A stretch of DNA of 64,000 nucleotides from Spirochaetota bacterium (GTDB lineage Bacteria; Spirochaetota; UBA4802; UBA5550): the NCBI GenBank assembly GCA_003246895.1, contig QKCL01000087.1, forward strand, positions 1 to 64,000, written 5' to 3'. The notes under the pieces were generated by a model. It saw nothing but the letters and a program-made list of their open reading frames with translations, did no database searches and was not told the origin of the DNA. The stretch's first letter is position 1. Each line of letters begins with the position of its first letter. The position numbers were made by a program, and so were the translations under genes. Shown here piece after piece: positions 41,070 through 46,130 of this stretch.

Positions 41070-41092
41070 GAGGCCCTGAAAAATCGGGCCTC
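41070..41092. terminator. GC-rich hairpin between cold-shock gene and tetR
   Basis: GAGGCCC (41070-41076) pairs with GGGCCTC (41086-41092), loop 9 nt. It overlaps the last bases of the convergent tetR gene. There is no strong T-run, but position between convergent genes suggests a bidirectional terminator. Confidence 0.6.
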
Positions 41093-41669
41093 ATTCTATC
41101 ATATGGGGCTTTAGTATTTCTTCGAGCTGTTTCAGCCCTCCGTCGATCATTTTTTCATTCGTATTTTCTCCGCTTGAATCAGAGAAACTCATCCAGAAGT
41201 CTGTGATAATCCATATATTTTTCATGAGCCTTTCAATCTGATCACTGCTGCTGAATTTTTTAATGAGACCCTTTTTTTCAAAATGTATAATCGCTGACTT
41301 CATGAACTTCATTTTTTCTCTATAGTTTTTTCTGTACATTTCCTTCAGAATTTCATCTTTCTTTAAAAGTGACGAAATTTCCAGATAGAAAAATCTGTAT
41401 TTGTATATGAGCCTGTAGTTTTCACGGAACAGTTTCATTGTTCCGGAGAAGTCTTCACATTTATCAAATCCTGACATTACCTGTGTGAATTCACTCGAAA
41501 TTTTAAGAAAAATTTCACGTATTATTTCCTCTTTGTTTTTAAAATGATAGTACAATGTGCCCGGGCTTATGCCGAGTTCATCAATTATATGATTAGTTGT
41601 CACTGAAAAGGCTCCATGCCTGTTGCAGAGTTCCACTGTGATATCAGTTATCTTTTCTCTTGTGTTCAT
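41091..41669 (-). CDS. TetR-family transcriptional repressor
   Basis: 192 aa from ATG 41669, preceded by GGAAATTTA. The N-terminal helix-turn-helix (REKITDITVELCNRHGAFSV, HIIDELGISPGTLYYHFKNKEEI) is typical TetR. The C-terminal ligand domain has no clear family features. It is last in a three-gene operon whose promoter carries two palindromes at 43503-43550, making autoregulation likely. A small-molecule or redox effector would be expected, but none can be read. Confidence 0.9.
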   Translation of the reverse strand: MNTREKITDITVELCNRHGAFSVTTNHIIDELGISPGTLYYHFKNKEEIIREIFLKISSEFTQVMSGFDKCEDFSGTMKLFRENYRLIYKYRFFYLEISSLLKKDEILKEMYRKNYREKMKFMKSAIIHFEKKGLIKKFSSSDQIERLMKNIWIITDFWMSFSDSSGENTNEKMIDGGLKQLEEILKPHMIE

Positions 41670-41703: not shown

Positions 41704-42834
41704 TCAAACTGTGCGCAGAAAACTTTCGAAAGGCATTCTGGGGCTCTCCGGTTCAGGATAGCTCTCAACATATCCTGCTCTCAGAATGAACTGGGGATTC
41801 CCTTTCAGTCCGCTGAAGCCAGATAACTTTTTTCCTGACTGGGCTTCTTCCAGTATCTGTGTCATGGGATGAAGGGCAATTCCGAATTTTCTGGCACGGA
41901 GAAATATTTTCTGAAAAATACCTCCGCAGTTTATCAGGGATTTCACATCATTACCCGCGGAGTTTATTACAATCCACCCTCCGGTTCTTGCAACCTGTTC
42001 TTCTGCCATGGCAACAGTTCTATTCCTGAATTCCTCTGTCATTACATCTTTTCCGGAATAGAAAGTTTCAACGTACCATCTTGAGATGCCTGAAATTTCC
42101 ATTGATGCAGGGGTTATGCCGTTTCTGTATTTTTCTATCTCAAAGCGGTTCCATCGTATCCATCGTGAAAGCTCCTCCATGGCATCATCTCTTCCGGTCT
42201 GGATCCTGTTGGCATTTACTGTTTCCCTTGAGAGGAATTGTCCTGTTTTTGACTGCAAGGGGTAGTAATGGGCAAGGTCCTCCACTTCATGAAAGAGACT
42301 GGTTAAATGTTCAGAACTGATGGCTGATAACTTATGATTTTTTCTCAGGGTTCTTCTCTTCTTGAGATCTGAAAGTATTTTCTCCTGCGTTCCGGAAGGA
42401 GAGTCTCCGCTCAGCTTTACCTCAATTATTTTGTCCGATTCAGGGTTTGATGAGATTATTTTCTCCTTCACTCTTAAACCGAATAGACCTGCTGAAATTC
42501 TAAGATTTTCCATAAATGCACCAAGACTTAACATCGTCTCCCTGTTTTCGGGATCAACTGCGGGCAGCCATCTTGTTCTGTCTGTTCCGATGATCCATCT
42601 GTCACGGCCGGCCAGATGCACAGTCCATGGCTGACTGTTGTGTCCGCTGGGGGCCAGGGAGGCATGCCATAAAATCTTTTTATGGCTGTCTGTTAATTCG
42701 CTAAGGGCGGAGTCTGTCATGTTTCGGAGGCTGTCATTTCTCTGTGTAGTAATGCACTGCAGATGCATGAGAGATGATGCCCCGAGCAGAGAAAGTGCTC
42801 CGGTTTTTAAAAAATCCTTTCTCGAGATTTTCAT
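41704..42834 (-). CDS. Exported nitroreductase-fold protein
   Basis: 376 aa. The N-terminus (SRKDFLKTGALSLLGASSL) looks like a Tat-type signal with an Arg-Lys variant. A nitroreductase-like motif (HASLAPSGHNSQPW, about 57-70) and a C-terminal hydrophobic segment (ARKFGIALHPMTQILEEAQSG) follow. Such flavin proteins reduce nitro or quinone compounds with NAD(P)H, but an exported member would need another electron source. It lies 34 nt upstream of tetR and 8 nt downstream of the exported 216 aa protein gene, so all three share one promoter. Confidence 0.75.
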   Translation of the reverse strand: MKISRKDFLKTGALSLLGASSLMHLQCITTQRNDSLRNMTDSALSELTDSHKKILWHASLAPSGHNSQPWTVHLAGRDRWIIGTDRTRWLPAVDPENRETMLSLGAFMENLRISAGLFGLRVKEKIISSNPESDKIIEVKLSGDSPSGTQEKILSDLKKRRTLRKNHKLSAISSEHLTSLFHEVEDLAHYYPLQSKTGQFLSRETVNANRIQTGRDDAMEELSRWIRWNRFEIEKYRNGITPASMEISGISRWYVETFYSGKDVMTEEFRNRTVAMAEEQVARTGGWIVINSAGNDVKSLINCGGIFQKIFLRARKFGIALHPMTQILEEAQSGKKLSGFSGLKGNPQFILRAGYVESYPEPESPRMPFESFLRTV

Positions 42835-42842
42835 TTTGTCTC

Positions 42843-43493
42843 CTAAAAATATATTCCCATGGATATGTTCATTCCCTGAGACTGAATGAACCAGTTCATT
42901 GTATTTCTGCTGCTGAATTTATTCTGAAATTCCCTGTACCCTGCAACAGAACCTGCCGGCTGGGTCCATATCTGAATTTCACCCACTGCCATTCCTGTGG
43001 CCATGCCCATGAGTGCGTTCTTTAGCGGCTCCTCCTTTTCAAAGAAAAAGATAACTCCGGCTCCGGCCAGGTTGGTAAGGAATGAGATGACTCTGGCCAT
43101 TCCTGAATTATTCCTCTGAACATGCTCAGAAGAGTCACGGAGCAGCTGTTCCGAAATCCTGTATGACTCTGAACTTTCATTATCCTGATGTTCCATAATT
43201 TTTTTATCCCCATTGATGCCTGGATATGGGGTTGTTATGAAGGGAACAATGGCGAGTATGGATTTGGCTGTAATAACGGAGTTTGTAACACGCAGTCTAT
43301 GGTCACTTTCTGCCTTGTATCCGTACCATGCAGCTGATGACGCATATATTGAGATCCAGGAATAGTGCCAGATTTTGACTTCTGTCTCTTCGGACCTGAA
43401 GTGGTTTATGGCAAATTCAGAAGGTTCATTCTCTGCAGCATGGAGATTGAAGTGCAGAAATATGAACACGATTAGTAGTATATATGGTTTCAT
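42843..43493 (-). CDS. Exported protein of unknown function, first gene of the TetR operon
   Basis: 216 aa from ATG 43493, with GAGGAAATAGA upstream. Signal peptide MKPYILLIVFIFLHFNLHA then AENEPS. Two weakly hydrophobic segments follow (NSVITAKSILAIVPFITT, VISFLTNLAGAGVIFFF). The rest has no recognised domain. As the first gene after the operators it is probably an induced target of the repressor. Confidence 0.75.
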   Translation of the reverse strand: MKPYILLIVFIFLHFNLHAAENEPSEFAINHFRSEETEVKIWHYSWISIYASSAAWYGYKAESDHRLRVTNSVITAKSILAIVPFITTPYPGINGDKKIMEHQDNESSESYRISEQLLRDSSEHVQRNNSGMARVISFLTNLAGAGVIFFFEKEEPLKNALMGMATGMAVGEIQIWTQPAGSVAGYREFQNKFSSRNTMNWFIQSQGMNISMGIYF

Positions 43494-43502
43494 TCTATTT
43501 CC

Positions 43503-43518
43503 TCGAATAAATATTCGA
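43503..43518. promoter_or_regulatory. TetR-type operator, copy 1
   Basis: TCGAATA, 2-nt spacer, TATTCGA: seven-base perfect arms, 10 nt upstream of the exported protein gene. Its centre is exactly 30 bp from that of the second palindrome, about three helical turns, so two repressor dimers could bind the same face. Confidence 0.7.
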
Positions 43519-43525
43519 CAAGGGT

Positions 43526-43555
43526 CATATATTCGAATAATTATTCGAATGGCAA
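43526..43555 (-). promoter_or_regulatory. Promoter of the TetR operon
   Basis: On the minus strand TTGCCA (complement of 43550-43555), 18-nt spacer, TATATG (complement of 43526-43531). The spacer is almost entirely the 20-bp palindrome, the standard place for a TetR repressor to exclude polymerase. Confidence 0.55.
43531..43550. promoter_or_regulatory. TetR-type operator, copy 2 (perfect 20-bp palindrome)
   Basis: The 20 bases from ATTCGAATAA to TTATTCGAAT equal their own reverse complement. The site is made of two ATTCGAAT 8-mers around AATT. It shares the TATTCGA half-site with copy 1 and fills the promoter spacer. It may also affect the divergent DJ-1/PfpI gene. Confidence 0.75.
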
Positions 43556-43604
43556 GCAATTAATTTAAACTTGCAATAAAATTATGTTCCTTTATAAGAT
43601 AATT

Positions 43605-44180
43605 ATGAATATAGGAATATACATATATGAAAAAGTTGAAGTCCTGGATTTTTCAGGGCCATTTGAGGTGTTCAGCACTGCTTCCAGAATTCACACAGAC
43701 AATCCATTCAGTGTCTCCCTGATTTCACAGCATGGAAAAGCTGTTGCCGCAAGGGGAGGGTTCTCTGTAAATCCGCATTTTTCATTTGGCAACTGCCCGG
43801 ATCCTGATGTTCTTGTTGTACCTGGCGGTATTCATACCGGTGAAATGGAGAAGGATGATGTTCTGAAATGGATCTCGTCAGTTTCAGAACGGACAGATAT
43901 TACTGCTTCTGTATGTACAGGGGTGTTTCTTCTTGCGGCCGCGGGAGTTGTTTTCGACGGGGAAGTTGTCACACACCATGAGGACATGGAAGATCTTAAA
44001 AGGCTTTTTCCGGAACTTCAGATTGTCAAGGGCAGGCGGTGGATTGACCGGGGAAAGATTATCACCTCGGGAGGAATCTCTGCGGGTATCGACATGAGTC
44101 TGCACATTGTTTCAAAGCTGGCAGGCCGGGAACACGCACTACGTACAGCAATGCAGATGGAGTATGACTGGAGAGAGTAG
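43605..44180 (+). CDS. DJ-1/PfpI-family protein
   Basis: 191 aa from ATG 43605. The class I amidotransferase-like fold has IYEKVEVLDFSGPFEVF at the N-terminus, the loop VVPGGIHT, and the nucleophile-elbow Cys in TASVCTGVFLLAAAG. GGISAGIDMSLHI near the C-terminus is typical of isonitrile-hydratase-like and AraC-associated members. The substrate is unknown. TTGCAA (43571) and TATAAG (43593) upstream would put transcription start at or very near ATG 43605. It is divergent from the TetR operon and shares its operator region. Confidence 0.88.
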   Translation: MNIGIYIYEKVEVLDFSGPFEVFSTASRIHTDNPFSVSLISQHGKAVAARGGFSVNPHFSFGNCPDPDVLVVPGGIHTGEMEKDDVLKWISSVSERTDITASVCTGVFLLAAAGVVFDGEVVTHHEDMEDLKRLFPELQIVKGRRWIDRGKIITSGGISAGIDMSLHIVSKLAGREHALRTAMQMEYDWRE

Positions 44181-44230: not shown

Positions 44231-44677
44231 TCAGGATTTATTTGATACATTTTCCAGAATTCTCTCCATGTAGCCAAGAACCTCAGTTCTTTCCTCTTTT
44301 GAAAAACCATGAAGAAGCACCTCGTTCATTCTTATGAGAATCTTCTGGAAGTCCTTTTTGACCTCCATGGCCTTGTCTGTGAGAAAAATGTTGTGTACCC
44401 GTTTATCTTTCCGGTTTACCTGTTTTGTCACATATCCCTGGTCCATGAGACTTTTTATTGCCTTGGCACCTTCATCCTTTTCAAAGCCGCAGTGGTCACA
44501 GAGTTCGTTCTGGCTTATGCCCTCTTTCTTGTATATGTGCAGCAGGGCCATGTACTGGCCTCTGCCAAGTGAGAGAAGTTCAAATTCTGGACTCATACGG
44601 CTGAAAATTTTTTTTGTGATCTTTGTGAAGTACCTGGACACGTTGTATCTGGGGAAACCTTCCCTGTTTGCCGGCAT
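44231..44677 (-). CDS. MarR-family transcriptional regulator
   Basis: 148 aa winged helix: GRGQYMALLHIYKKEGISQNEL, CGFEKDEGAKAIKSLMDQGYVT and the wing NRKDKRVHNIFLTDKA. It lies 6 nt downstream of the MFS efflux gene and is almost certainly its repressor, with a palindrome at 46110-46130 as target. Phenolic or toxic compounds usually release such repressors. Confidence 0.92.
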   Translation of the reverse strand: MPANREGFPRYNVSRYFTKITKKIFSRMSPEFELLSLGRGQYMALLHIYKKEGISQNELCDHCGFEKDEGAKAIKSLMDQGYVTKQVNRKDKRVHNIFLTDKAMEVKKDFQKILIRMNEVLLHGFSKEERTEVLGYMERILENVSNKS

Positions 44678-44683
44678 TATCTG

Positions 44684-46096
44684 CTACCTGTCCCTTTTCA
44701 TTCTGTAGAGAGTGAGAATGAGTCCAATTGTACATATTGCTGCTCCTGCCATATAGACAAACTGCATGGCATCAATGAATATCTGCGGCGCTTCTTTTGG
44801 AAAACCGGTGATCTTTGTGCCTGCTTCAAGAGACATTCTGTGGTAAAGAAGAGAAACGGCAAAGGTTATACCTGTAACCATTCCTATATTCCTGGCAAAT
44901 GCGTTTATGCTTCCGGTAAGCCCCAGTTTGTTTTTAGGAGAAAGCCCCATGAGTATTGATGTGTTGGGTGACTGAAAAATTCCATGGCCCATTCCCAGAA
45001 GCACCCCCATTGCAACTATTGTAAAGGGAGATGAATTCAGATCGAGAAAACTGAAGAGTACAAGAGCAATGACAAGTATTCCAAGTCCCGTTGCGGTGAT
45101 TGCCTTTGGGCCGGCAACATCTGAAATATGGCCGCTTATGGGTGCTACTATGAATGTAGCCACAGGGAATGCAACCATGAATAGTCCGGCTTCAGCAGGA
45201 GAGAAAGACAGTGCGCTCTGGAGATAGAAGGGGTGTATTATGTTTACAGTAAAGGCAACCACAAAGGTTAAGAAGGCACATATTAGGCTGATGCTGAAAA
45301 ACGGTATCCGCAAAAGTTCAATATCTATGACCGGATCCTTGGCTCTTTTTTCAACCGGAATAAGTAAAAATAGTGAAACAAGTCCAGTGAGGCCCGCGGC
45401 AGTCAGGGTTTGCGGAGAAACATGGTCGTCTGTGAATGCGAGCAGTGACCAGAATACAAGGCTCACACCGCAGATGAGAAGAGCGGAACCTGCGTAGTCA
45501 AAGGGTTTGTGTTTCTCGTCACTGGTATCTTTGGGAAGTATTATAATACCCATAATGAATCCTATGACAGAAACCGGAATGTTTATTATGAAAATTGACT
45601 GCCAGTTGAAGAAATGAACCAGAAACCCTCCAAGGGGCGGCCCGGTCATTGTCCCTACGGCAACTGTGCTTCCAAGTATTCCAAGGGCCTTTCCCCTTCC
45701 TTTCTGTGAAAACGCCGATGCCACGATCCCCTGATTTGACGACATGAACATGGCCGCACCTATGGCCTGAATAATACGTGATAGAACAAGTGTAACAAGT
45801 GTGGGAGAAAGTGCGCAGAAAAGTGAACCGATTCCGAAAACTATGAATCCCTTAAGGAACACATTGGATTTCCCTATTCTGTCCGAGAGCTTGCCGAATG
45901 ACAGTATACATGATGATATTATTAAAAGGTAGCTTGTTACCACCCACTGTATTCCGCTGATTTCCGTATGTAGTTTCTCTGCCATGACCGGCAGGGCCAC
46001 ATTTACTATGCTTGCATCCAGTGTGGCCATGAAGGTGGACATGAGAACCACCATGAGGATTCTCCATCTTTTATCGTGTACATCTGCAGAGTTCAT
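44684..46096 (-). CDS. MFS drug efflux transporter (DHA2/EmrB-QacA type)
   Basis: 470 aa from ATG 46096, with AGGAG 6 nt upstream. Roughly 14 transmembrane helices. TFMATLDASIVNVALPVMAE (helix 1), GKLSDRIGKSNVF (motif A) and TVAVGTMTGPPLGGFL (motif C) are characteristic of proton-driven drug exporters of the EmrB/QacA group. In an operon with marR, and overlapped upstream by a palindromic operator. Confidence 0.93.
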   Translation of the reverse strand: MNSADVHDKRWRILMVVLMSTFMATLDASIVNVALPVMAEKLHTEISGIQWVVTSYLLIISSCILSFGKLSDRIGKSNVFLKGFIVFGIGSLFCALSPTLVTLVLSRIIQAIGAAMFMSSNQGIVASAFSQKGRGKALGILGSTVAVGTMTGPPLGGFLVHFFNWQSIFIINIPVSVIGFIMGIIILPKDTSDEKHKPFDYAGSALLICGVSLVFWSLLAFTDDHVSPQTLTAAGLTGLVSLFLLIPVEKRAKDPVIDIELLRIPFFSISLICAFLTFVVAFTVNIIHPFYLQSALSFSPAEAGLFMVAFPVATFIVAPISGHISDVAGPKAITATGLGILVIALVLFSFLDLNSSPFTIVAMGVLLGMGHGIFQSPNTSILMGLSPKNKLGLTGSINAFARNIGMVTGITFAVSLLYHRMSLEAGTKITGFPKEAPQIFIDAMQFVYMAGAAICTIGLILTLYRMKRDR

Positions 46097-46109
46097 AATA
46101 TCTCCTTGA

Positions 46110-46130
46110 TTAGTTGAATTTATCAACTAA
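46110..46130. promoter_or_regulatory. MarR-type operator of the efflux operon
   Basis: TTAGTTGA (46110-46117), ATTTA, TCAACTAA (46123-46130): perfect 8-bp arms. On the minus strand it sits just upstream of the ribosome-binding site, and a perfect TTGACA -35 (complement of 46145-46150) places the -10 region within the palindrome. Binding would block transcription. Confidence 0.75.

Follow-up and report, generated by a model that had tools for sequence, protein, structure and literature searches.

Which regulator acts on the two palindromes at 43503-43550, and which of the neighbouring genes does it control? The palindromes lie in a stretch of 64,000 nucleotides from a Spirochaetota genome (hereafter the window), between a three-gene operon on the minus strand and a divergent gene on the plus strand.

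The operon and its paired palindromes

The features of the locus are as follows.

41091..41669, minus strand: TetR-family regulator, 192 aa when read from MNTREK (the longer ORF starts at 41771), matched to PF00440 and PF13972
41704..42834, minus strand: Acg family FMN-binding oxidoreductase, nitroreductase fold, Tat-like N-terminus, matched to NF047509
42843..43493, minus strand: exported protein, 216 aa, signal peptide, no family match (ORF and family search)
43500..43504, minus strand: likely Shine-Dalgarno sequence GAGGA (from sequence), two bases common to O2
43503..43518, no strand assigned: predicted proximal operator O2, TCGAATAAATATTCGA, central two bases non-palindromic
43526..43531, minus strand: -10-like box TATATG (from sequence, consensus match only)
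43531..43550, no strand assigned: predicted distal operator O1, 20-bp palindrome ATTCGAATAATTATTCGAAT without mismatch, 16-bp core TCGAATAATTATTCGA at 43533-43548
43550..43555, minus strand: -35-like box TTGCCA (from sequence), at the same offset in the related genomes G004 and G014, 7 bp before the 16-bp operator
43584..44180, plus strand: divergent DJ-1/PfpI gene, probably outside the regulon

The gene content of the operon was as given in the original prediction, i.e., an exported protein, a nitroreductase-fold protein and a TetR regulator, and the latter two were matched to families. The oxidoreductase aligned with NF047509 over profile positions 2-319 of 319 (E=1.7e-61, 208.4 bits with a cut-off of 199). 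The regulator carries the N-terminal helix-turn-helix domain PF00440 (45.7 bits, cut-off 24) and the C-terminal ligand/dimer domain PF13972 (82.9 bits, cut-off 25); the related solved structures are 3rh2 and 3nnr, and its recognition helix reads SPGTLYYHF in the alignment. The intergenic gaps within the operon are only 8 and 34 bp, so co-transcription of the three genes is likely. The exported protein had no similarity to the exported proteins of related operons. Beyond the DJ-1 gene, an MFS transporter gene and a MarR-type regulator gene (44231-46126) lie on one strand, six bases apart, and probably form a separate efflux operon.

The two palindromes share the pattern TCGAATA-NN-TATTCGA, at 43503-43518 and 43533-43548, and their centres are 30 bp apart, so that the 20-bp palindrome, the 16-bp repeat, their common half-site and their distance are all present as originally described. 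The exact 14-letter pattern occurred twice in the window and in none of 100 dinucleotide shuffles, and the pair at 30-bp spacing occurred once in the window and never in the shuffles. A genome search for further sites, proposed beforehand, recovered the two sites of the locus and no other exact match in the 3.57-Mb genome. The sole site with one mismatch genome-wide falls inside coding sequence, in the C-terminal half of a HemN-like ORF on contig C87, and as such was rejected as a chance match.

The -35-like box TTGCCA (43555-43550) and the -10-like box TATATG (43531-43526) are weak consensus matches on the minus strand, separated by a spacer of 18 bp. As the original prediction had it, the 20-bp site lies in this spacer; O1 spans the whole of it together with one base of each box. 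The local promoter scan did not include this promoter in its list because it required a final T, which is missing from TATATG. O2 starts near the expected transcription start. At its other end it reaches the GAGGA ribosome-binding site, leaving 9 bp to the ATG at 43493; O2 is expected to span the transcription start, and it touches the ribosome-binding site.

Conservation of sites, promoter position and regulator

Of the 46 genomes of the order, 15, the window's own included, encode homologues of the TetR regulator with 31-46% identity; the search of viral contigs gave no relative. At most of these homologue loci, palindromes of the form TNGANTA-NN-TANTCNA either adjoin the TetR gene or precede an Acg gene. 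Acg-type genes follow such sites in G014:C13, G016:C382, G004:C199 (where the Acg gene was assigned by similarity only), G032:C23, G045:C154, G040:C157, G036, G035 and G027. In G030, the palindromes are followed by an exported-protein gene and then by an Acg-type gene, while in G004:C199 the operators are followed by FMN reductase, exported protein and Acg genes. Lack of conservation of the palindrome in close relatives had been named in advance as the outcome that would speak against the original prediction; the palindrome is conserved, and the sequence of its half-site shifts outside the closest clade.

In G004, G014, G016, G045 and G040, the TetR gene and the sites of the Acg operon are on different contigs, so the site and the regulator are conserved together without adjacency. 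Before these operons the sites are again paired, at 30 bp in G014:C13 and G004:C199, 29 bp in G016:C382, and 26 bp in G045:C154 and G040:C157. Moreover, nearly all of the promoters with such sites have a TTGAC-like box whose start precedes the upstream operator of 16 bp by 7-9 bp, so that this operator fills the promoter spacer.

Of the pairs listed by hand from the loci compared, six are spaced 30 bp apart, five 26 bp, two 29 bp, two 28 bp and one 24 bp. The 30-bp spacing is common among the closest relatives of the window and is not a rule, the overall range being 24-30 bp. Because the spacing varies, the two sites probably act as separate operators, and the pairs do not point to a strict phasing on the helix or to a fixed complex of two dimers; some cooperation between the sites is possible.

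Two further promoters of G004 have a single TCGAATA operator, one before an alpha/beta hydrolase gene (L200 4132) and the other before a small membrane-protein gene (L201 5199), and they possibly belong to a wider regulon. In G014 (L046 5798-6460), a protein with a nitrite/sulphite reductase domain (PF01077) is encoded 3' of the TetR gene on the same strand, and may be a further target. The queE gene is divergent at both L199 1700-1842 and L046 7272-7418, where the operator side is occupied by FMN reductase and Acg genes in G004 and by the TetR gene in G014; the operators seem to have stayed while the genes at the queE loci were exchanged.

Half-site type and recognition helix

In several phyla, the usual palindrome of this TetR family is the 16-bp TAGAGYA-NN-TRCTCTA, which is often paired and usually follows a TTGAC -35 box directly. 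A survey of 80 loci from many phyla outside that of the window gave 36 operators at 28 of the loci; at the threshold applied, the remaining 52 had no site of this kind close to the TetR gene. Among the 36 operators, there were 21 cases of a TTGAC-like box 7-9 bp before the operator and three at 10-20 bp. In Acinetobacter, Pseudomonas and Alcanivorax, a TAGAG site is located between the TetR gene and a divergent aldehyde dehydrogenase gene, in the promoter spacer. In Paenibacillus, a Thermoflexales genome and Kibdelosporangium, an Acg-type gene directly follows the TetR gene, and the TetR-Acg link therefore exceeds one phylum. A literature search on the TAGAG motif, PF13972 and the TetR-Acg link returned nothing relevant. 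The findings on the palindromes amount to a predicted operator code for a little-characterised TetR branch present in several phyla.

The type of half-site followed the recognition helix of the regulator. TetRs with an SPGN helix pair with TAGAGYA, and those of the SPGT clade (G000, G004, G009 and G014) pair with TCGARTA; G016 was also placed in this clade, its TetR gene being broken in the draft and 88% identical to that of G014 over the readable part. Among the 393 genomes of the phylum, TTG-N4-TCGARTANNTAYTCGA occurred at four places in three genomes, all among the five with an SPGT TetR (Fisher p=1e-6), and TTGA-N3-5-TAGAGYANNTRCTCTA at eight places in seven genomes, all with SPGN-type TetRs (Fisher p=1e-11), both tests counting related, hence non-independent, draft genomes. 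All ten genomes bearing these promoters and operators carry the corresponding TetR type.

Judged from sequence, the half-site change and the helix change go together, and do so in one clade only. The SPGT group forms a single clade (support 97/98) and thus represents one event, and correlation alone cannot show cause; residues 29-30 also differ between the two types. Tentatively, and at slightly less than even chances, we suggest that a module with its operator fixed in the -35/-10 spacer is present in several phyla, and that one clade switched from TAGAGYA to TCGARTA along with an N to T change at helix position 38 (and Ala to Ile at 29), the change spreading to unlinked Acg, FMN-reductase and other promoters. 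If true, the regulator and several target sites would have moved together in a natural switch of specificity, and the paired change would offer a direct and easily tested case of specificity evolution in the TetR family.

Two members of the clade have irregular loci. G009 carries an SPGT-type TetR gene (G009:C18, L048, 343-951), and no site within one mismatch was found anywhere in its draft genome, nor any diverged site; this TetR may be an orphan regulator, its site may have changed further, or the draft may have a gap. In G016:C61 (L057, 3377-4000) the draft TetR gene contains stops and undetermined bases, while its own operator and the pair at G016:C382 are kept.

Proposed regulation, alternatives and known systems

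O1 and O2 are very probably operators of the TetR repressor encoded by the third gene, predicted to repress its own operon until released by a small molecule. This reading is based on sites that outnumber the chance expectation and have no further exact copy in the genome, that are conserved in relatives, and that co-occur with the matching TetR type; at the sequence level, a palindromic operator lies in the promoter of the regulator's own operon, as is characteristic of the TetR family. The original prediction of paired TetR operators, one of them filling the promoter spacer, is likewise favoured by this conservation and by the agreement with TetR type. From the sites, their promoter position and their linkage to TetR genes in relatives, we infer binding, repression and an inducer in the following form. 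A repressor dimer bound to O1 would occupy the DNA that separates the -35 and -10 boxes and block RNA polymerase. Another dimer, bound 30 bp downstream at O2, would lie over the transcription start and the early leader and reinforce the repression. The repressor would thereby shut off the exported protein, the Acg-type FMN oxidoreductase and itself, until released by a small molecule, plausibly a redox-active, nitro or lipophilic compound.

It had also been suggested that one repressor controls both directions, and the operators do lie within the 90-bp intergenic region shared by the operon and the DJ-1/PfpI gene. However, a plausible DJ-1 promoter (TTGCAA at 43571-43576, a spacer of 16 bp, TATAAG at 43593-43598) is situated past both operators, and the gene opposite the operators differs between loci, being queE in G004 and G014:C33 and transporter-like in G014:C13 and G016. 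As a search of the four other SPGT genomes, run with no positive control, also gave no DJ-1 homologue, this part of the original prediction was not borne out, and joint control of the DJ-1 gene through these operators is unlikely.

That the palindromes serve another regulator is far less probable still. The candidate would be the MarR-type protein at 44231-44677, whose gene is about 700 bp from the sites and whose family uses similar palindromes of 16-20 bp, but in different genomes and phyla sites of this form go with the PF13972 TetR, no MarR gene was seen beside the operator-bearing Acg operons of G004:C199, G014:C13 and G016:C382, and the MFS gene upstream of the MarR gene on the same strand is a likelier MarR target. 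The idea that the palindromes arose by chance in AT-rich intergenic DNA, or form an RNA hairpin, carries almost no weight: the high AT content of the region and the ability of a palindrome to fold speak for it, but the shuffles gave no match where the locus has two, O1 is upstream of the predicted start and would escape transcription, and the conservation of form and promoter offset in other genera contradicts both versions.

With the TetR repressor as the preferred reading, the locus was compared with described systems. What appears new, as far as sequence can tell, is a further case of a known TetR/operator type together with a possible natural change in operator specificity. In the laoABCR cluster of Pseudomonas aeruginosa, aldehyde dehydrogenase LaoC is accompanied by the TetR regulator LaoR (PA0367) (PMC7318663), and the PA0367 motif obtained by ChIP-seq is in a cluster described as more likely inverted repeats (PMC13086498). 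The Pseudomonas, Acinetobacter and Alcanivorax members of the present family are divergent from an aldehyde dehydrogenase gene, as in laoABCR; the comparison is at the level of gene arrangement. The LaoR cluster serves long-chain alcohol oxidation, whereas the target in the window is an Acg operon with the half-site TCGAATA; its regulator has Acg and exported-protein genes as neighbours instead of genes for long-chain alcohol or aldehyde oxidation.

In Mycobacterium smegmatis, MSMEG_6503 represses the neighbouring nitroreductase-fold enzyme NfnB via operator sites (PMC11841060); NfnB is not of the Acg type, and the comparison is at the level of gene arrangement and mode of control. Acg (Rv2032) of Mycobacterium tuberculosis, which is induced by DosR (PMC11841060), belongs to the same family as the window oxidoreductase (NF047509, FMN-bound nitroreductase fold). 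It is under DosR rather than TetR control, and several of the members found here have N-terminal export signals. The locus links the TetR branch with Acg-type flavoproteins, a group of disputed activity whose best-known representatives respond to DosR.

QacR dimers occupy one shared long operator of 34 bp (PMC4486848). QacR and CgmR both place two dimers on neighbouring DNA, as proposed for O1 and O2; instead of one long overlapping inverted repeat for two dimers, the present loci have two separate complete palindromes, 24-30 bp apart in relatives.
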